Positions 1-11,104 of a stretch of DNA of 11,104 bases are shown piece after piece (positions within the stretch are counted from its first letter, which is position 1; each line of letters opens with the position of its first letter). Source of the DNA: Firmicutes bacterium AM55-24TS. GTDB taxonomy: Bacteria; Bacillota; Clostridia; UBA1381. The position numbers and the translations under genes were made by a program. The DNA lies in contig QTVU01000069.1 in the NCBI GenBank assembly GCA_003460745.1, positions 1 through 11,104 on the forward strand. The letters run 5' to 3'. The notes under the pieces are model-generated. The model did no database searches. It saw only the letters and a program-made list of their open reading frames with translations, and was not told the DNA's origin.

Positions 1-81
1 TATAATACAAAACGAATCAAGCAGTCACTGGGCTATATGAGTCCGGCAGAGTACAGACATAGTCTTGGATTAACAGCATAA
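1..81 (+). CDS. IS3-family transposase OrfB, C-terminal end (partial)
   Basis: This is the 3' end of a gene that enters from the left edge in frame 1; 26 residues and a stop are visible. The peptide includes the stretch RIKQSLGYMSPAEYR. The 'R-K-LGYMSP-EYR' pattern closes the DDE integrase domain (rve_3) of IS3-family OrfB proteins, which catalyse strand transfer of the circularised IS after an OrfA-OrfB frameshift. The catalytic D, D and E residues lie upstream, outside the window, so integrity cannot be judged. The stop is at 79-81 and the probable IS end lies about 23 bases further on. Confidence 0.85.
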   Translation, partial: YNTKRIKQSLGYMSPAEYRHSLGLTA

Positions 82-408: not shown

Positions 409-1113
409 TTATTTATCTATACATTCAGCATTAGTCAAAAAATACAGTCCAAAATTTGTATTTCTCTCTAATGAATGCAAATCTTGTTTTATGTATTCCC
501 ACGATTCATGGTATCCATTAACGACAGAAAAATCTGACTTTGTGATAAAAGTTATAAATTCATTTATTTTATCTTTATATTCTTTCACAAATCTAATAGC
601 ATCTCTTTCTTTATCTTCGTCACTGCTATTCAGCTTATTGTAAAATACATGATCCAAGTTACATGACATATAGTAGCATGAATAAGGTATTGTACTCCAT
701 ACAGTTTTGCAACATGATAATTTATCTAATATACTGGATTTTTGTATGTTTCTGCTGATTATTTTATTTTTATCATCAGACTTTATATTGACTAAACTAT
801 AAATAGGTTTAGCCGCATCTTTATCCTCTAATATATGTTCGTCATCTATATATGCACCGTCCATATCCACAATATGAATGACTTCTTTAAAATCAGATTT
901 TTTAAAATGGTTATTTTTGGCATAATTTTGAACAATAGTGCCTATTTTTGCAAGTATATTTGAATTTGTTACACCATGTTGAGTTGTTATATCACCATGA
1001 ATAATTTGTACATACACTTCATTCTTATCTAACATCCTACTAAGCATTGTACCAATAACTTCATCATCAGAAGGGCCTTCAACTATTACAAAAACAATTT
1101 TCTTACGAGCCAC
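409..1113 (-). CDS. TOPRIM-type protein, probable nuclease partner of an ATPase defence pair
   Basis: A 234-residue protein from a GTG start. The N-terminus has a hydrophobic strand then VEGPSDDEVIG (glutamate near residue 12), and IVDMDGAY follows at residues 81-88 (D83, D85). A strand-E-G motif followed by a D-x-D strand is the metal-binding signature of TOPRIM domains, as in OLD, Gabija and PARIS AriB nucleases. The C-terminal half is cysteine- and tyrosine-rich (MSCNLDHVFYN) and I cannot assign it. GTG at 1111-1113 was chosen because AGGTGA lies 5 bases upstream and the start overlaps the ATPase stop by 11 bases; a TTG at 1140 is also open but would overlap more. The tight overlap implies translational coupling with the ATPase. 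Nuclease activity is inferred from the fold motif. It could instead be a non-catalytic TOPRIM-like sensor. I cannot name a precise family. Confidence 0.75.
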   Translation of the reverse strand: MARKKIVFVIVEGPSDDEVIGTMLSRMLDKNEVYVQIIHGDITTQHGVTNSNILAKIGTIVQNYAKNNHFKKSDFKEVIHIVDMDGAYIDDEHILEDKDAAKPIYSLVNIKSDDKNKIISRNIQKSSILDKLSCCKTVWSTIPYSCYYMSCNLDHVFYNKLNSSDEDKERDAIRFVKEYKDKINEFITFITKSDFSVVNGYHESWEYIKQDLHSLERNTNFGLYFLTNAECIDK

Positions 1114-2512
1114 TAATATCACCTGCCTCTCTGAATGCAAGTGCTATCTCATAGTTATTTGTAGTTTCATAAACCGGTTCATCTTGTTCACCCAATATAA
1201 TATCTCTGTAATAAAAATCTCTAAGATTATTATTATTTTTTACATTACTGAATCGTATATATCTGTTATTCACATTCGTTGTTGTAAACGCTATGAATCC
1301 CTTATCTATAGTTTCTAATGGGCGTAAATTATGTGATGTGAATATAAGTTGCCCATTTCCTTTTTCCGAAATTATTCTTAAGATTTCACCTAATAAATAC
1401 TCAAAAATTCCCGAATCCAATTCATCGATTGCAACTGTTATAGAATCATTATTATATACAACTATAAGAAGTTGTAATATAGATACAATCTTTTTTATTC
1501 CTTCCGATTCATAACGCAATGCAATTTCTTTTTTATTTTTCTTTGAGATTAATTCAATAATATAACCAGTTTCACCATTTTTCATTGTTTGAGTTCCGAT
1601 TACTTTTATGCCGATAGTTAAATTCGGAATAAGCTGTTCCAACACTATATTCATATTTTTAATAACATTATTTACAACTTCAAATGCTTGTTCGGGTATC
1701 ACTCCTGAACCATTTAGCGGAATCGGTAAATTGCCAACTGCATTTCCTCTTTTATTTGAATACTTAAAAAATAACGGTAATGCGTCAAAACTAATAAGTC
1801 CCGAATTTTTTACATCGATAATAAAAAGTTCAAAATTTCCAAATTTAGTTAATGCATCAAATAAAAAAACATGATATTTTTCTTCACAGTTTTTCCTTAT
1901 GCAGTTTAATAATTCTTTTGAAAACACAAACGATTTGGATGTCGCTAACGCAATTTTCTTCGCCACAAACAAATCCTTTTCATCCTCATTTCCTGTCAAC
2001 ACATTATATTTTGATTTAGGCAAAAAAACATCTGATGTTCTGGTATTGATAATTGGCATTTTTCTAATTTTTTTATCTCCGCATTCATATGAATAACTTA
2101 AAACCTCATCAACAATAACAGCCTTTTCTTCTTCAGCAACTTCCAAACTGTTATCATCGATATTAACCGCATTTTTTTCTATTTCTTTTTTTAAACTAAA
2201 TGAATAATTTACATTATACTCAGCTTTTTTATCAATATCCTTAACGGTAAACTCATATTCCAATGTGGCTGCGTCTGCGTCAACATTTACAAAATCTGCA
2301 TATTGTTTAGGAATCGGTCTACCACAAAGAGCAAATTTCAGCAAAGCTATAGCGTCAATTAATGCTGTTTTACCCGAACCATTCTGTCCATACAAACCAA
2401 GAACGCTGGCTTTATAATTTTTTCTGTGATTTTCAAGCAGAAGACTTCCGTTTACAACATTTTTCCAATTTTTTATAGTAATCTTTTTTATACGAATTAC
2501 TGACTTGCCCAT
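1103..2512 (-). CDS. ABC-type/AAA15-like ATPase (OLD/AriA-like), probable defence sensor
   Basis: About 469 residues, intact. The N-terminus is a short strand region (IRIKKITIKNWKNV) leading to a Walker A loop GQNGSGKT at residues 42-49. The C-terminal half has a signature-like SEGIKK, a Walker B strand ending in IDELDSG (D363, E364) and an H-loop FTSHNLRP (H394). This SMC/RecF-like layout with a long insert between Walker A and B is typical of AAA15/OLD-type ATPases that pair with TOPRIM nucleases in phage defence. Starts at GTG 2527 and ATG 2521, 2518 and 2512 are all possible; 2512 is chosen because GGGG lies 9 bases upstream. It has its own promoter (2557-2585) and runs directly into the TOPRIM gene. 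ATP binding is well supported; a role in sensing phage is inferred from context. Confidence 0.85.
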   Translation of the reverse strand: MGKSVIRIKKITIKNWKNVVNGSLLLENHRKNYKASVLGLYGQNGSGKTALIDAIALLKFALCGRPIPKQYADFVNVDADAATLEYEFTVKDIDKKAEYNVNYSFSLKKEIEKNAVNIDDNSLEVAEEEKAVIVDEVLSYSYECGDKKIRKMPIINTRTSDVFLPKSKYNVLTGNEDEKDLFVAKKIALATSKSFVFSKELLNCIRKNCEEKYHVFLFDALTKFGNFELFIIDVKNSGLISFDALPLFFKYSNKRGNAVGNLPIPLNGSGVIPEQAFEVVNNVIKNMNIVLEQLIPNLTIGIKVIGTQTMKNGETGYIIELISKKNKKEIALRYESEGIKKIVSILQLLIVVYNNDSITVAIDELDSGIFEYLLGEILRIISEKGNGQLIFTSHNLRPLETIDKGFIAFTTTNVNNRYIRFSNVKNNNNLRDFYYRDIILGEQDEPVYETTNNYEIALAFREAGDISGS

Positions 2513-2528
2513 ATTCATCATCCCCACA

Positions 2529-2804
2529 TCATATAAGTTTAATTAATATCACATATAGTATAACACATGTTCTCCAAATTATCAATATGAAATATAAAAA
2601 ATCGAACATTTTGTTCCTTTTTTGTATTTCAATAATATCATTTTTGCCATTTATCATAACATAATCTTCAAGAGGTATTATGCTATCCCATCTGCAGTTA
2701 GTTGTTCCATAAGGTAGGTCTGTGAATATCATATCAACTGATTTATCAGGAATATCTTTCATCAGTTCAAGACAATCGCCTTGCCATAATTTAATGTCGC
2801 TCAT
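2529..2804 (-). pseudogene. DNA methyltransferase, N-terminal fragment
   Basis: The ORF has 91 codons with a good ribosome site (GTGAGG, 7 bases before ATG 2804). The first ~47 residues are clearly the start of an N6-adenine/N4-cytosine methyltransferase: WQGDCLELMKDIPDKSVDMI followed by FTDLPYGTTNCRWDSIIPLE. DLPYG is the DPPY-type catalytic motif IV, and GDCLELM precedes it as in beta-class enzymes. After about residue 47 the sequence stops looking like a methyltransferase and becomes AT-rich, ending in a hydrophobic tail; family members are usually well over 200 residues. The AdoMet-binding FxGxG region is missing, so it should be inactive. It follows the HTH gene by 9 bases. The break point near 2660 is probably where the ATPase/TOPRIM unit replaced the 3' part. 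Confidence 0.75.
2557..2585 (-). promoter_or_regulatory. Sigma-A promoter of the ATPase/TOPRIM unit
   Basis: On the minus strand TTGATA (2580-2585) and TATACT (2557-2562) are separated by exactly 17 bases, a near-consensus housekeeping promoter. Transcription would begin near 2550, giving a leader of about 38 bases before the ATPase start at 2512. It lies inside the tail of the truncated methyltransferase ORF, so it probably arrived with the defence unit and lets the unit be expressed independently of the upstream genes. Confidence 0.6.
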
Positions 2805-3965: not shown

Positions 3966-4729
3966 TCAGCTCCTGGTTTCAGCGTCTTCATCAAAAAGAT
4001 TTCGGTCCTTTACCCTGTAGGAGTGCCCCGTGATTTTAATGATTTCACAGTGATGTACCAACCTGTCAATGATTGCGTTTGCAATTACTGCATCTCCAAA
4101 AACATCCGGCCATTTTGAAAAAGACTGATTTGTCGTAAGGATGGTTGGTCTGAATTCATATCTTGCTGCGATTAATTGGAAAAATCCATACGCCGCAGCT
4201 TTGTCAACCGGAAGATATCCGATTTCATCAATTATCAAAACTGTGTATTTGAGATAGTGTTTCACAACCTGCTCTACACGGTTTTCCTTTGATGCCTGCT
4301 TCAATTTCTCCATCAGTTTGGCAAAATTGATGAAATATGTAGATATTCTTTGGCTTGCTGCTTCAATTCCTATGGCTGTAGCAAGATGTGTTTTTCCTAC
4401 TCCGCTTGAGCCAATAAAGATAATATTTGTTTTCGTTTCTATGAATCTCAAACTTGTTAAATCTGCATTTGCTCTTTGTTTACTGATGGCTGGTATGAAA
4501 AATCAAAATCCTTAAACGTTTTATGTACGGAAAATGTGATGTCGTAATATTAATCTTTTTTGCTCTTTCTGCACGAAATTCAATCTCTGCATTTGTAAGC
4601 TCAAGTAAAGAGTCTACAAGAGATGTTTTGTTTTTTTGTTGATTTATCAATAACGTTCGGAAGAATTTCAAGCATCTTGGTAAGTGCAAGCTCTTCCATG
4701 TTGTTTTTTAATACATTAAAGCTTGTCAT
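3966..4729 (-). pseudogene. istB: IstB, IS21 helper ATPase, frameshifted
   Basis: IstB is the AAA+ regulator that directs the IstA transposase. The start (ATG at 4729) overlaps the istA end by 14 bases, giving MTSFNVLKNNMEELALTKML. The conserved sequence then changes frame three times. The first is at the A-rich run near 4626-4640. The second is near 4529 (the sequence should continue HFPYIKTFKDFDFSYQ). The third is near 4490, where a short GCCA repeat may have been lost. The remaining long frame (3966-4451) carries the core: Walker A GSSGVGKTHLA, Walker B VLIIDEIGYLP, TTNQSFSKW and the arginine-containing IIDRLVHH. The core is intact, but the N-terminal IstA-interaction part cannot be made in one piece, so the element is probably immobile unless helped in trans. 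Confidence 0.85.
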
Positions 4730-5942
4730 ATATCTCAAGATTCCTTTCTGCAACAGCTGTAATTTCATCATCGGAAAGCCTTCTCAAAGAGCTACATCTT
4801 GCAATTTCCATATAGTCCTGATGATTGAAATTTGTAATCTTTGATGTTTTATCCCAATGGCGTATAAAATGTCCGTCAAAGGTAATATTGAAGCCTATAC
4901 CATCATCTTCAATATCTAAATATTTGCCGATGTATTTAGGCGGTACAGAATACTTTCTGCCCTCATAGGTAATCAATGATTCAACACTAACTTTCCTTTT
5001 GATGGTTTCCTTGAAATATCCTGAAAGAATATCAAGGTCTGTTTGTATCAGATATGGTTTTTCAATATCAAGTAATTCAAACGGCGGTTTATCTGTTGCC
5101 TGACATTTTTCAGAATTGATTTGTTCATTAAGCTCCATCGTTATTCTTTTAATGTCATCAAAGCAGGTTATGTCTCCGCTGTAAACCTTTAATCTGTTCA
5201 CAAGCTTTGCAGTAACTTCAACTTTGCCCTTTGTTTCGGGACGGTATGCCACACAGGCTTTTGGAATGAACCCGCAATCAGAGGAGAACATACTGAATTC
5301 ATCATTAAACACAGGTTCATTGTACTGTGTACGTGCCTTATCAATTATTGAACGCATATTATCAAAGAGGATTTCATGAGGTACTCCACCTATGTATTTA
5401 AACGCTTTAACAAGACATTCTTCTACTGTATGTAAATCTTTTGTTTCTGTAACACAAAGAAACTTAGTTCTTGAAAAGCCGAGGATTAGTAAAAATACAT
5501 TAAATTTTATTGTATCACCGTCTTTGGTTTTGAAATTCATTGACTCTTTCCAATCCACCTGAGCCTGAATACCCGGATTTGTTTCAAAACGGATAACAGC
5601 TTGCTTTTGTTTTTCAAGGTTAAGCTTTCGGATATAGTCTTTAATTGTGGTATATGAGCCTGTATATCCATGATGCTTCGTGATGTAGTTACAGATAGCA
5701 ATAGCGGGAGCACCGGTTTTTAATTTTTCTTCTATTATCAATTCGAAGCCATCAGTTTTTCTGGGTTTATTTACTTTCGGCTGGGGCAGATTGTTTTTCA
5801 CAGCATTGATAGCTTTAGAAACGGTTCTGCGGTCACAACCGTACTGACGAGCAAGCTTTGAACAGTTAATATTTACTTGTGTGTTATCTTTAAGCATAAA
5901 CTTCACCTTCTCATAAATGTCTTTTCTGTAATTCATTTTCAT
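4716..5942 (-). CDS. istA: IstA, IS21-family DDE transposase
   Basis: About 408 residues and uninterrupted. An N-terminal HTH (CSKLARQYGCDRRTVSKAI, residues ~27-45) is followed by a second DNA-binding segment, then an RNase H-like catalytic core. Catalytic candidates are D130 (QAQVDWKE), D194 (ILFDNMRS) and E242 (PETKGKVE), with the usual IS21 spacing. A C-terminal Mu-type beta-barrel segment (YEGRKYSVPPKYIGKYL) follows. ATG at 5942 or 5936 is the likely start; GTG at 5945 is also open. No clear Shine-Dalgarno is present: the start lies inside or beside a perfect 38-base palindrome that could hide it in RNA. IstA cuts and joins the IS ends with IstB. Since istB is broken here, activity would need a second copy elsewhere. 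Confidence 0.92.
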   Translation of the reverse strand: MKMNYRKDIYEKVKFMLKDNTQVNINCSKLARQYGCDRRTVSKAINAVKNNLPQPKVNKPRKTDGFELIIEEKLKTGAPAIAICNYITKHHGYTGSYTTIKDYIRKLNLEKQKQAVIRFETNPGIQAQVDWKESMNFKTKDGDTIKFNVFLLILGFSRTKFLCVTETKDLHTVEECLVKAFKYIGGVPHEILFDNMRSIIDKARTQYNEPVFNDEFSMFSSDCGFIPKACVAYRPETKGKVEVTAKLVNRLKVYSGDITCFDDIKRITMELNEQINSEKCQATDKPPFELLDIEKPYLIQTDLDILSGYFKETIKRKVSVESLITYEGRKYSVPPKYIGKYLDIEDDGIGFNITFDGHFIRHWDKTSKITNFNHQDYMEIARCSSLRRLSDDEITAVAERNLEIYDKL

Positions 5943-5978
5943 CACTTTTGAATAGAGTATACTCTATTCAAAAGTGAT
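5941..5978. promoter_or_regulatory. Perfect 38-base palindrome over the istA start
   Basis: Each half is ATCACTTTTGAATAGAGTA and the two halves are exact reverse complements with no loop and no mismatch. The istA start codons at 5942 and 5945 lie inside it, so in an istA transcript the hairpin would bury the start region. It could act as a translational block against read-through transcripts entering the IS, as a terminator-like hairpin, or as a repressor operator. Confidence 0.85.
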
Positions 5979-5980
5979 TT

Positions 5981-6031
5981 GCCAGAATTGTACATTTTGA
6001 GTTGGCGTTTTTGTACATTTTTATTTTAACA
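5981..6031 (-). repeat. IS21 inverted repeat, right end
   Basis: Reverse complement of the 3797-3846 end. It contains TGTACATTTT at 5989-5998 and again at 6012-6021. It lies directly upstream of istA and abuts the TnpB fragment. Confidence 0.8.
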
Positions 6032-6032
6032 T

Positions 6033-6266
6033 TTATATGATGGAACTTATCAGAAGAAAACATTGTCTCAAAGATGGAATGATTTCAATGGAATTAAGGT
6101 GCAAAGAGATTTGTATTCAGCTTTCTTAATAATGAATATAGCAAGTGATTTAAAGAGTTTTGATATTGATAAATGTAACGAAAGATTTGAGAACTTTTAT
6201 CGACTTCACAATTTGGAAGTAGATAGATTAACTGGGCATAAGAATTTAAGTAGTATAGCAATTTAA
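6033..6266 (+). pseudogene. TnpB-like transposase, C-terminal fragment
   Basis: The frame runs out of the IS21 right end as LYDGTYQKKTLSQRW, then continues KVQRDLYSAFLIMN and RLHNLEVDRLTGHKN to a stop at 6266. The 'QRDLYSAFLI' piece resembles the last RuvC-like motif of TnpB-type proteins of IS200/IS605-like elements (conserved D before a small-residue helix). Only about 77 residues remain of a protein normally near 400; the RuvC I and II motifs and zinc-finger cysteines are absent. The 5' part was lost at the IS21 junction. The family call is from memory of related clostridial transposases and the TnpB-like right-end hairpin downstream; another zinc-ribbon transposase family is possible. Confidence 0.55.
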
Positions 6267-6435
6267 AAAAGAATATATAAAAGGTTTTGATACGAGCCTT
6301 ATACTATCGTTAAACAAGCGTTAGCGAGTTTGGTAGTGAAAGTCTTATAGAAACAGATTAGTCTTATATGCTTTCGAGTATATTTGGAAGTCTATGTATA
6401 TAAGAACCCAACGTGCTTTAGCTGTTGGAGTATCA
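6267..6435 (+). ncRNA. Structured TnpB right-end region, candidate omega RNA remnant
   Basis: TnpB elements encode a guide RNA scaffold that runs from the end of the gene through the right end. Here several nested hairpins are visible. ACTATC near 6303-6308 can pair with GGTAGT near 6331-6336, enclosing AAAC...GTTT and GCG...CGC-type stems. At 6408-6428 CCAAC-GTGCTTTAGCT-GTTGG forms a stem closely like the right-end hairpins of IS605-type elements, followed by GGAGTATCA. With TnpB truncated it should have no partner here. Transcription and exact ends are not shown by the sequence. Confidence 0.35.
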
Positions 6436-6445
6436 GTTATATTTT

Positions 6446-6480
6446 GGCATCTATTAAGTTAGATGCCTTATTTCATTTTT
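6446..6480 (+). terminator. Intrinsic terminator-like hairpin after the TnpB right end
   Basis: GGCATCTA (6446-6453), loop TTAAGT, TAGATGCC (6460-6467) is a perfect 8-base stem followed by TTATTTCATTTTT. It would stop + strand transcripts leaving the TnpB remnant. Confidence 0.55.
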
Positions 6481-6529
6481 AGGAGTGTCAAATAACCTTT
6501 GGCGAGAAAATTAAAAGTAAAAAATTATA

Positions 6530-6829: not shown

Positions 6830-8106
6830 ATGAATTTTACACAAAATGAGAAGATTAGTCAAGTAACAAACGAAACTTTAGTGGTAGGAATTGATATTTC
6901 GAGTGAAAACCACTATGTAAGAGCCTTTGATTGGCGAGGAATTGAATTATCCAAAACATTTAAGTTTGAAAGCACAAGCTATGGTTTTAAGCGGTTAATG
7001 GAATGGTTAGACGAAACCTGTAAGTCCAACAGCAAAACAAAAGTTATCATGGGTGCAGAACCCACAGGTCACTATTGGTTCACTTTAGCTGAATATCTAA
7101 AAGAAAACAATATAAAGTTTGTATTTGTTAATCCGATGCACGTAAAGCGTACAAAGGAGCTTGACGATAATCATCCAAGCAAGAATGACAGAAAAGACAC
7201 AAAGGTCATAGCAAAGCTGGTAATCGAGGGTCGATACCTGATACCGTACATTCCTGAGGATATCTACGCAGAGCTTCGGGTTGCAAACGAAAGAAGAATG
7301 CGTATTACAAGAGAAATAGTTGCAATTAAAAACCGCATACAGAGATGGTTTGCAATATATTTCCCTGAATATACTCATGTGTTTGGCAGTTGGGAATGCG
7401 ATAGCAGTATTGAGGTATTAAGAAATTGTCCGTTACCGGCAGATGTTATGAGTTTGGGTGCAGAAGACATAAATCAATTATGGAGAGAAAAGAAAATCCG
7501 TGCTGTTGGTATTAAAAGAGCGAATGCTTAATAGAAACAGCAAAAACAAGTGTTGGTGTTAAAAACGGAGCAAATGCAGCAAGGTTTGAAATGTCAATGC
7601 TGATAGAGGATTATCTGATTAAAAAGGAACAGGAAGCAAGGATTATTGAGATACTTAAAACTCTTTGTATTCAGGTTCCGAATAGTGAAAAATTGTTAAG
7701 TATTAAAGGTATAGGTATATTGACGGTTGCGAGCTTTTTCGGTGAGGTTGGTGATATTAGACGCTTTGAATCACCAAAACAAATACAAAAGCTTGCTGGA
7801 TTAGCAATTGCCAATGATGATTCTGGCAAGCACAGAGGAAAAGCAGGGATAAGTAAGCGTGGCAGAAAATTACTAAGATATACACTGTTCCAAGCTGTTA
7901 TATCACTTCTTATGCATTCGCCAGAATTTAGATACCTACACCATTACTATACAACAAGGTCAAATAATCCATTAAAAGGGAAACAATCAAAAATTGCTTT
8001 GTGCTGTAAGCTAATACGAGTCTTTTATGCCATACTAACAAAAGGTGTGGAATATGACAGCGAAAAGCTGTTGTATGACATTGTAAGACCAGAATTAGCT
8101 GCATAA
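6830..8106 (+). pseudogene. IS110-family transposase (DEDD recombinase) with one frameshift
   Basis: The N-terminal half (6830-7531, 233 residues) has the DEDD RuvC-like domain: D22 in VVGIDISSENH, E77 in GAEPTGHYW, and D120/D123 in NDRKDTKVIAKL. The frame stops at TAA 7529-7531. One base back, the -1 frame continues LIETAKTSVGVKNGANAARFE and then the Transposase_20 domain: a helix-hairpin-helix (LLSIKGIGILTVASFFGEVG) and SGKHRGKAGISKRGRKLLR with the presumed catalytic serine, ending at 8106. Joined, the protein would be about 425 residues, normal for the family. GAATGCTTAA is not a classic slippery heptamer, so a one-base deletion is more likely than programmed frameshifting. GGAGG lies 9 bases before ATG 6830. 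The family enzyme exchanges DNA strands guided by a bridge RNA. Confidence 0.9.
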
Positions 8107-8534: not shown

Positions 8535-9634
8535 ATGCCACGAAAAGGTGAAAACATATATAAGCGGCAGGACGGTCGCTACGAGGGACGATATATCAAG
8601 AATATGGTTTAGACGGCAAGGCTAAATACAGATATATTTACGGAAAAACATATTCCGATGTTAAGGAGCGTCTTATACGATTAAAAGCTGAGCCTAAAAA
8701 CGCAGGAAAAACAGTGTCCTCAAACTTGAAAATATCAGAGTGGTTTGATATATGGTATGATAGTCAGACACATATCAAGCAGTCTACAAAGAGCATCTAT
8801 CAGTCATATGCAAACAAACATCTAAAACCCAAAATGGGGACGGTAAGACTGAAAAAACTCAGCAGAGATTTAATTCAGCAGTTTATTGACGAGCTTAGCA
8901 TCGAGCTTTCACCAAAAACAGTACGAGCTGTGTATTCAATGCTGAAGCTGTGTTTGACAGCAGCATATGAAAAGCATCTTATTGGTAATGTTGTTGATAA
9001 AATATGTCTGCCTAAGACCGTATCTAAAGATGTAAAGGTATTAACAAAACAAGAACAGAAGCGACTTGAGCAAGTTATTGAAGCTGAAAACAAAGAAAAC
9101 GATATTGGAATTTTAATATGCTTATACACCGGAATCCGTATCGGTGAGCTGTGCGCTCTAAAATGGGAAAATATCAATCTCGACAGAAAAATAATGACAA
9201 TAGATAAAACAATGTATAGTGTACAGTCCAATGATGGAAAATGCAAGACGAAAATAATATTAAGCTCACCCAAAAGCGTCAATTCGGAGAGGGATATTCC
9301 AATAGCTGAGTTATTGTCTGAAAAATTATCAAAAATACAGAAATCGGAAGGCTTTGTAATCAACAGGAACGGAAAGTATATTGAACCCGCCGTATATAGC
9401 AGGAGATATAAAAAGCTTCTTGAAAAAGCCGGAATTGAATATATGATGTTTCATTCCACGCGTCATACATTTAGCGTTCGAGCTCGGGAGCTTGGAGTTG
9501 ACGTTCAGACGCTCAGCGAAATTCTGGGGCATTCGTCAGTATCTACCACGCTGAATTTTTACGGGCATTCTCTGCCGGAGCATAAGCACAATCAAATGGA
9601 ACGGATCGGCGGCTTGTTTTCGCAGTCAAAATAA
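8535..9634 (+). pseudogene. int: Tn916-type tyrosine integrase with an early frameshift
   Basis: ATG 8535 is preceded by GGGAGGGAGG at a 9-base gap and gives MPRKGENIYKRQDGRYEGRY, the N-terminal DNA-binding domain of Tn916-type integrases. Near 8600 the frame stops (IKNMV-stop), but one frame over it continues EYGLDGKAKYRYIYGKTY and the whole of the rest to 9634. A lost G (AAGAAT from AAGGAAT) explains it. The downstream part has the SAM-like core-binding domain and a complete catalytic set: R (YTGIRIGE), K (SSPKS), H-x-x-R (FHSTRHTF), H (LGHSS) and Y (LNFYGHS). A GTG at 8714 could start a 306-residue protein lacking the arm-binding domain, but it has only a weak ribosome site. Full length would be about 366 residues. 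No excisionase gene is upstream, since the IS110 element occupies that position. Confidence 0.88.
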
Positions 9635-9681
9635 GCCGTCAGAAAATTGAAAACATGAATTATATAGCGGACTTCAAGAAA

Positions 9682-9712
9682 AAAGTCATTAAATTATAAA
9701 CTTAATGACTTT
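9682..9712. terminator. Hairpin terminator downstream of the integrase
   Basis: AAAGTCATTAA (9682-9692), a 9-base loop, and TTAATGACTTT (9702-9712) form an 11-base perfect stem. The + strand tail is TTATTG, only mildly T-rich; on the minus strand a T-rich tail (CTTTTTTCTTG) follows, so it may work in both directions. The 9635-9825 gap otherwise holds no gene and might contain the element's attachment junction. Confidence 0.6.
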
Positions 9713-9825
9713 ATTGTAGGCTAATTGCTGTGGAATATTTATAAAAATACTGCTCCCAAATAAGGCATAATGACGAAAAATAGGAAAAAAACAAAAATTA
9801 TATGCTTATTTTATGAAAAATAGTT

Positions 9826-9831
9826 TATAAT
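9826..9831 (+). promoter_or_regulatory. Possible -10 box of the agr-like operon
   Basis: TATAAT lies 35 bases before ATG 9867. No good -35 is visible at 16-18 bases upstream, as expected for an activator-dependent promoter, but no LytTR-type repeat pair was found either. If used, transcription would begin near 9838 and remove the ribosome site for the alternative ATG at 9846, favouring 9867. Confidence 0.3.
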
Positions 9832-9866
9832 GGAAAGGAGAATCAATGCTTAAGGGGGAACTTGAT

Positions 9867-10577
9867 ATGCGTATTGCTATCTGCGATGATGAGAAAGACG
9901 CATTACAACAAACTATAAATATTGTAAACAATGTGTTTTATGAAATGAATATACAGTGTTATATAGATCAATTTACTAATGCCCTTGATTTGGTGCAGTG
10001 CAAAAAGCAATATGATGTAATCTTTTTGGATATAGAACTTAAAGAACACGACAAAAATGGTGTATGGGCAGCCAAAATGACAAAGCAGAAAAATCCTGAG
10101 AGTATTATTATATTTACAACAAACCATGAGGAGTATATTGATGACGTTATTGAAAAATATGCGTTTAGATACTGTTCTAAACCTATAGACGAATATCGTT
10201 TAAAAAAGAGTATGCAAGTTATTCTTGACCGTATGCAGGTAATAAAAGTAGAGATATACGAAGGCAGGGATAATATTGCGTTGCCGCTTTGTAATATTAT
10301 ATACATTACACCGGAAGGGAAACATTGCAAAATAGTGACAATTAAAGGGGAATACATAGCCACAAAATCTTTTAAGGAAATTAAAGAACATCTTACTGCA
10401 AAGGATTTTTGTGAATGTCATGGCAGTTACTATGTAAATCTTAACTATGTTGAAAAATATTCTAATACAGAGGTTTATTTGAAGTATAAATCGCACGAAT
10501 ACAAAGTACATATGTCAAGACGGCTTTATTCTATTTTCAAAGAACGAATGTTTATTGTGGGAGGCGAAAAAATATGA
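9867..10577 (+). CDS. AgrA-like LytTR response regulator
   Basis: A 236-residue intact protein. Residues 1-120 form a receiver domain with the acidic pair D7/D8 (MRIAICDDE), phospho-acceptor D55 (VIFLDIEL), T84/T85 (IIIFTTNHEEY) and K104 (RYCSKPID). Residues ~128-232 form a LytTR DNA-binding domain (ITPEGKHCKIVT, CHGSYYVNLNYVEKY, VHMSRRLY). ATG 9867 is preferred because AGGGGG lies 8 bases upstream and family members begin MRIAICDDE. ATG 9846, with its own GGAAAGGAG site, would add seven residues. The stop overlaps the next start (ATGA), so the downstream sensor is translationally coupled, as in agr and related peptide-signalling or bacteriocin operons. It would activate target promoters when phosphorylated by that sensor. 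The signal peptide gene is not in the window. Confidence 0.9.
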   Translation: MRIAICDDEKDALQQTINIVNNVFYEMNIQCYIDQFTNALDLVQCKKQYDVIFLDIELKEHDKNGVWAAKMTKQKNPESIIIFTTNHEEYIDDVIEKYAFRYCSKPIDEYRLKKSMQVILDRMQVIKVEIYEGRDNIALPLCNIIYITPEGKHCKIVTIKGEYIATKSFKEIKEHLTAKDFCECHGSYYVNLNYVEKYSNTEVYLKYKSHEYKVHMSRRLYSIFKERMFIVGGEKI

Positions 10578-11104
10578 TAGACAAAATAGATATGATTATA
10601 GCGATTGTATTATCATGTTTGGTATTCATATTTTATACGAATTCGACAATGCCGCAAAGAAAAAACTATATTATGTCTAATATAAGCATAATTTTAGGAT
10701 ATATACTTATTTATGCTGTTTCCTTATATAATATACAATACATAAACATTGCGGTGTCTGTTGCTGTTAACTTTTTTCTTATATATCTATGTTTTAAAAC
10801 AAATATAAAAAATGCAATTATTCAGTCATTGCTTTTGGTGGCAATTATGATGATTTCAGAAGGCATTATATCTATGTTTACCGATATATGCTCTGAAGTC
10901 AATGGATTATCAGGAAAATCATTGGGAGTGAAAATGATTCATGCCGTAGTATCTAAGCTGATATATTTTACAGGAATAGTTATCGTTAAAATTTATAATC
11001 AAAAAGGTAAATCAAAAAAATGAAAATTATAGCGTTTTTTTTTAGCTTGTTGACTTTTCCTGTATTTACGATGTTTATTTATTAGTGGAATAATGCTGAT
11101 ATTT
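10574..11104 (+). pseudogene. AgrC-like sensor kinase, membrane domain, frameshifted and cut by the window end
   Basis: The first frame (149 residues to TGA 11021-11023) is almost all membrane: helices at about residues 5-21, 33-50, 57-75, 83-103 and 120-140. This is the sensor half of AgrC-type kinases. Those proteins continue to roughly 430 residues with a sixth helix, a DHp helix and a HATPase_c domain. Here the sixth helix continues in another frame after a run of seven A (MKIIAFFFSLLTFPVFTM) and returns to the first frame at about 11081 (ISGIMLIF). GGGAGG lies 9 bases before ATG 10574. Either the gene is decayed, or the two homopolymer-linked shifts are sequencing errors. The kinase domain, if present, is beyond the window. 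Confidence 0.6.

Follow-up and report, generated by a model that had tools for sequence, protein, structure and literature searches.

The gene pair at the locus

The DNA considered here is a stretch of 11,104 nucleotides from Firmicutes bacterium AM55-24TS (contig QTVU01000069.1), referred to below as the window. Near its beginning lie two intact genes on the reverse strand, as the initial annotation had it: (i) an ABC (ATP-binding cassette)/Rad50-type ATPase gene encoding 471 residues from an ATG start (1103..2518, stop included), whose best model is AbiLi, and (ii) a TOPRIM-type effector gene encoding 234 residues from a GTG start (409..1113, stop included), recognised from its open reading frame (ORF), an AlphaFold model and profile searches. 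The genes are separate and read in different frames, the stop of the ATPase gene and the start of the TOPRIM gene sharing 11 nucleotides (1103..1113, reverse strand). By alignment, the same overlap is present in 61 of the 70 related loci with both full references, with ATG, GTG or TTG at that place in 59, and it is likely to couple translation of the two genes. Judged by sequence, the pair is an unnamed relative of AbiL and PARIS.

All the motifs first reported for the two proteins were found where they had been placed, encoded on the reverse strand, and are conserved across the aligned rows. In the ATPase (69 rows), the Walker A motif GQNGSGKT (residues 44-51; 2366..2389) has invariant G44, Q45, N46, G47, G49 and K50. 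The ABC signature-like YESEGIKK (residues 336-343; 1490..1513), which we take to be the signature motif, has invariant E337, S338, G340 and K343. The Walker B motif and D-loop, VAIDELDSG (residues 362-370; 1409..1435), retain D365 and D368 in every row and E366 in nearly all, and the H-loop S-H-N (residues 395-397; 1328..1336) is invariant.

The TOPRIM protein carries VEGPSD (residues 11-16; 1066..1083), with the putative catalytic glutamate E12 in all 124 aligned rows and D16 in 117, the other 7 having E, and DMDG (residues 83-86; 856..867), with D83 and D85, the predicted DxD, each in 124. A third motif, SCNLDH (649..666), follows strand 4 and is a candidate second-metal site: S150 and N152 are each kept in 123 rows, aspartate occupies position 154 in 119 rows and glutamate in 5, and H155 is present throughout. 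The residues identical in all rows are E12, G13, D41, D83, D85, Y105, K125, Y144, H155, K168, F175, W205 and S214. On this alignment, the TOPRIM motifs are conserved and not a product of chance. The C-terminal half had also been described as rich in cysteine and tyrosine; what is conserved there is the core S-x-N-L-(D/E)-H. Cysteine is found at position 151 in 98 rows, at 135 in 42 and at 134 in 6, and a cysteine metal site was rejected since C151 is not invariant.

The AlphaFold model of the TOPRIM protein (mean pLDDT, the predicted local distance difference test, 91.7) has strands and helices in TOPRIM order: strands at residues 5-11, 31-37, 75-83 and 142-149, and helices at 14-27 and 53-67. 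It contains the beta-alpha-beta-alpha-beta core, with E12 after strand 1, D83 and D85 at strand 3, and strand 142-149 just before SCNLDH. In profile searches, the window protein scores 10.2 bits against PF01751 (Toprim), below the cut-off of 23.1, and 10 of 121 family rows reach that profile at E<=0.01, the best at 4.2e-4. The statement that the unit belongs to no nameable family holds for this half, which passes no curated cut-off in the libraries scanned; it does not hold for the ATPase, which matches AbiLi and AriA, or for the layout, which is that of AbiL and PARIS. A protein search returned 1167 TOPRIM homologues at E<=0.001, and the names given to family members (4 of the best 120 rows listed, 10 of 40 in another listing) are all 'hypothetical protein'. 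No description of the family was found in the titles, abstracts or text passages of the literature searched, a scope outside which subscription papers fall.

Upstream of the ATPase gene lies a sigma-70-like promoter candidate (2557..2585, reverse strand; TTGATA-17-TATACT, with TG before the second hexamer), matching 10 of 12 consensus positions. The site described earlier as a private near-consensus promoter thus exists, but does not rise above background: positions 1-2830 of the window hold 14 promoter-like sites, against a mean of 19.1 (standard deviation 3.8) in shuffled sequence. Because such sites are no commoner than in the shuffles, a promoter of the pair's own is plausible, with this as a candidate site.

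Joint inheritance and mobile carriage

A scan of species genomes for TOPRIM relatives found at least 254 encoded, and the best 80 were fetched as loci. An ATPase homologue lies directly upstream on the same strand in 77; in the other three the TOPRIM gene is at, or at most 235 nucleotides from, a contig end, and one of them (L027) shows an ATPase remnant. Both genes are open and adjacent in 71 of the 80, counted as stop-free frames (70 by the strict rule plus L040, which is one profile position short). The ATPase is cut at a contig end in seven loci, the frame in L027 closing 15 nucleotides from the end, and an interrupted TOPRIM frame stands beside an intact ATPase in two, L067 and L073, the stop in L067 falling early. 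Tree distances of ATPase and TOPRIM protein correlate with r 0.885 over 73 pairs, the maximum of 1000 permutations being 0.397; joint descent is sufficient alone to account for this correlation. The pair is real, widespread and inherited together. Alignment placed 77 TOPRIM starts: 30 with GTG, 22 with TTG, 20 with ATG and 5 with none of these; weak starts are common, and would suit a dangerous protein. Within 3 kb of the pair, each neighbouring gene family occurs in at most 4 of 70 loci; the sequence extends 3 kb on both sides in 46 of these. More diverged ATPase and TOPRIM relatives (L103-L121; about 175-250 bits for the TOPRIM protein and 340-470 bits for the ATPase with the window-family profiles) perhaps form one or more sister clades.

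Going by the titles of the records, many of which are metagenome bins, 70 members come from Bacillota (61), Pseudomonadota (2), Spirochaetota, Synergistota, Actinomycetota and Fibrobacterota (1 each), with 3 unassigned. Plasmids carry it too: eight records show a match to the ATPase, and in six the match covers 80% or more of the protein. At the five plasmid loci inspected, the TOPRIM gene adjoins the ATPase gene in L002 and L003 and was not found in L001, L004 and L005. The last of these (5143-6492), on a Cetobacterium plasmid, has a distant ATPase relative (127 bits) beside nucleotidyltransferase and HepT-like genes, near cas13c annotations.

One phage record, Clostridioides phage pCD1602_4, has the pair, and the whole pair is present in the phage genomes L006, L230 and L231. 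Four IMG/VR contigs encode a relative (L230, L231, L232 and L233): in L230 and L231 the pair stands among phage genes (tape-measure, portal and terminase-like proteins by eye), and in L233 both genes are broken. The pair is a mobile cassette. In L230 a second, different AAA-type ATPase gene (by eye; 8939-10264, forward strand) lies between the pair and the tail genes, perhaps as part of a small phage defence cluster.

The surroundings in the window are, by eye, a mosaic of transposase, integrase and truncated genes, in keeping with the mobile setting among decayed genes first proposed. Positions 1-81 (forward strand) read, by eye, as the C-terminal end of an IS3-like transposase, which puts an insertion-sequence remnant at the border of the pair. 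On its upstream side (2529-2804, reverse strand), a 91-residue ORF directly next to it begins, by eye, like a DNA methyltransferase and continues with unrelated residues, apparently a truncated copy. Further along, and likewise named by eye, are an IS21-like pair (3966-5945, reverse strand), an IS110-like transposase in two ORFs (6830-7531 and 7591-8106, together 6830-8106, forward strand), a tyrosine integrase (8714-9634, forward strand), and a LytTR-type response regulator followed by a predicted membrane protein (9846-11023, forward strand), which resemble an agr-like regulatory operon.

Asymmetric decay and the proposed function

Decay was surveyed in 299 genomes of the family of Eisenbergiella tayi, presumably Lachnospiraceae, with one search per profile checked on fetched DNA. 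A trace of the TOPRIM gene occurs in 36, about one in eight. Of 39 loci with one or both genes, 27 have both intact, and in seven (G023, G093, G176, G137, G212, G291 and G121) the ATPase is whole but the TOPRIM gene is truncated, interrupted or absent; none of the 27 intact TOPRIM genes in these genomes lacks an intact ATPase. Neither gene is whole in five (G214, G280, G202, G264 and G152, where the ATPase runs into the contig end). Seven against none gives a two-sided sign-test p of 0.016, and if damage scaled with gene length, the TOPRIM gene being a third of the total, all seven would fall in it with a probability of about 4e-4. Four loci outside the survey (L067, L073, L001 and L004) point in the same direction. 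Such a tendency to lose the TOPRIM gene and not the ATPase gene is expected if the ATPase restrains a toxic TOPRIM protein. Partner swapping as the source of the missing TOPRIM genes was rejected for six of the seven loci, in which remnants follow the ATPase; G121 has none and might be such a case. At L221, in G176, roughly 24 residues of the TOPRIM gene are left, with a 631-residue DUF262-like gene (named by eye) after it, perhaps another defence gene.

The neighbourhoods were compared with PADLOC models at E<=1e-15, giving 95 models matched in 119 genes near 19 loci, against 19 models in an equal number of control genes (119) drawn from those contigs; the first 25 models listed near the loci include the UG5-nitrilase reverse transcriptase, DrmD and mad3. 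This excess is suggestive only, because one protein can match many models and several of the control hits resemble housekeeping or transposon genes. When both gene sets were scanned with Pfam, 114 and 141 families were reached; of the first 25 listed for each set, most are metabolic or have some other role outside defence.

Taken with the precedents of PARIS and NetFlax, the decay asymmetry, the conserved overlap and the mobile carriage make an ATPase-guarded TOPRIM nuclease acting in abortive infection the best reading. The ATPase would assemble into an oligomer, hold the TOPRIM protein inactive and sense infection; a phage trigger would alter the ATPase, and the nuclease would be released or activated. 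It may then cut tRNA or other RNA, by analogy with AriB, or DNA, by analogy with OLD, and growth of the infected cell would stop. In PARIS, an AriA hexamer restrains AriB; once a phage protein has triggered its release, AriB cuts tRNAs (PMC12409363, available passages). In E. coli, two separate-gene pairs were found to behave as toxin (the TOPRIM protein) and antitoxin (the ATPase) (PMC10440598, available passages), and AbiLii of F. nucleatum is toxic in E. coli according to the accessible part of PMC3985639. It is fairly probable that the pair is a mobile two-gene cassette of this guarded-effector kind, working like AbiL and PARIS but separate from them as a sequence family; we infer a role in phage defence. 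Several points weigh against it. The decay events are few and the TOPRIM gene is always the downstream one; on a viral contig with phage tail genes upstream (L232, 2303-3380, forward strand), a distant TOPRIM gene (30% identity) is open and the ATPase is reduced to its last 53 profile positions, so that the asymmetry is not absolute. AbiLi of F. nucleatum, in the same accessible part of PMC3985639, gave no antitoxicity, which counts against a simple guard.

The decay asymmetry fits a toxin and its antitoxin, and a plain addiction module that stabilises mobile elements and senses no phage would also suit an ATPase found on plasmids and a pair found in phage contigs and patchwork mobile regions. 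Against this, a 471-residue ATPase with invariant ABC motifs seems, as a matter of judgement, costly for a mere antitoxin, and the available passages of PMC10440598 and PMC12409363 present AbiL and PARIS, to which it is most closely related, as defence systems; addiction alone is judged improbable. A DNA-repair or recombination pair used by mobile elements, with a Rad50/RecF-like ATPase and a TOPRIM protein in the style of RecF and RecR, would share the combination of domains. It is a very remote prospect given traces in so few of the related genomes, no fixed neighbour, asymmetric loss, and an ATPase fold that fold comparison also places in PtuA of solved retron and Septu complexes.

The guarded nuclease is thus probably a new sequence family of a known, AbiL/PARIS-like design for abortive infection. 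As regards the proposal of a new defence family, the family is new in sequence, and possibly in active-site detail, with defence as its probable role; the general design was already known. Should this interpretation hold, common gut bacteria gain a further guard-effector family, and three matters become readily testable: whether the small protein is toxic, what it targets, and which phage trigger the AbiL-like ATPase senses.

Comparison with known systems

AbiL (AbiLi and AbiLii/RloB, first described in Lactococcus) has the same plan of two genes, with the ATPase first and a small TOPRIM-class protein second; RloB is related to OLD_TOPRIM by HHpred (PMC10440598, available passages). The pair could simply be AbiL, its TOPRIM protein a diverged AbiLii. 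Gene order is the same and size similar, AbiLi is the best PADLOC model of the window ATPase (94.5 bits, 1.6e-27), the ATPases of all 64 aligned members match AbiLi and AriA at E<=1e-10, and in a viral fold search an RloB-like protein ranks third by E (0.014), with the highest probability (0.87), among the 50 rows listed. RloB genes of related genomes, 41 of 150 of which had one over the cut-off, served for calibration. Three RloB-paired ATPases score 253-285 bits for AbiLi, about three times the window ATPase, and two RloBs score 104-107 bits for AbiLii, whereas no match to AbiLii (PDLC02337) or PF13707 (RloB) was reported for the window protein by HMMER, whose filters drop most matches above E 0.1. 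PF13707 is likewise absent from the 7 Pfam families reached at E<=0.01 by any of the 121 rows, and hhalign of the TOPRIM protein against RloB gave 3.5%. Conversely, the window-family ATPase profile scores 617-744 bits on 8 close pairs and about 340-475 on diverged pairs with a TOPRIM match, against 18-56 bits at 26 of 30 RloB loci and no match at 4. These score gaps and the missing AbiLii/RloB match point to a relative of AbiL and not AbiL itself, and identity with AbiL is judged unlikely.

PARIS (AriA and AriB) likewise has a separate ABC ATPase guard and a TOPRIM effector. It differs in that the window ATPase is nearer AbiLi than AriA (59.1 bits, 1.6e-16), and in that no match to AriB or to PF14491/DUF4435, presumably the family of AriB, was reported for the window protein under the same filters; PF14491 is not among the families reached by the 121 rows. 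The view that the TOPRIM partner departs from the RloB and DUF4435 patterns is upheld. In the family of Eisenbergiella tayi, 1 genome out of 120 has DUF4435 above the cut-off, and 6 out of 120 have DUF4276.

MADS (MAD3 and MAD4) and the PADLOC candidates HEC-01 and PDC-M12 also combine an ATPase with a small B protein. Marginal matches at E<=0.01 were found among the 121 rows for mad4 (16), the HEC-01B model PDLC04196 (13) and PDC-M12B (7), the best at 1.7e-4; in 2-3 rows an oligonucleotide cyclase (6e-5) and other models with no apparent relation do as well, so that these matches are hints only. No GajB helicase of Gabija is seen by eye beside the pair in the window, nor is any gene family a regular neighbour (4 of 70 loci at most, within 3 kb). 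As regards PtuB, the HNH nuclease of Septu, the gene after the ATPase is the TOPRIM gene or its remnant in 35 of 37 ATPase-anchored loci, HNH not having been searched by profile. NetFlax offers a likeness in working: in E. coli tests of pairs from C. algidicarnis and S. agalactiae, the AAA ATPase D29 neutralises TOPRIM_OLD D44 or D60 (PMC10440598, available passages). D44 is RloB; D60 or M70 could conceivably belong to the window family.

The OLD nucleases (P2 Old, TsOLD and B. pseudomallei OLD, with GajA as class 2) share an ABC ATPase and a TOPRIM domain with E...DxD, but carry both on one polypeptide, whereas the window pair is two genes. In TsOLD, E377, D431 and D433 align with metal A ligands and D381, S478 and E480 with metal B ligands (PMC7049728, available passages). 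Taking equivalence from order along the sequence and the predicted strand, not from superposition, the metal A residues are present as E12, D83 and D85 in all 124 rows, and D16, at E12+4, mirrors the spacing of E377 and D381. The metal B region departs from the S/T/D-x-E of the three OLD proteins (Ts S478/E480, Bp T506/E508, P2 D541/E543; PMC7049728, same passages), having S150-x-N152 instead, with D/E154 and the invariant H155 beside it. Tentatively, the family may be a distinct guarded nuclease whose TOPRIM site leaves the OLD rule, S/T/D-x-E giving way to S-x-N-L-(D/E)-H with an invariant histidine and the additional invariant D41. Such a site could bind its metals in another arrangement or act on another substrate, such as one particular RNA; phages that infect gut Clostridia would trigger the system, and some of these phages would carry it themselves against rivals.

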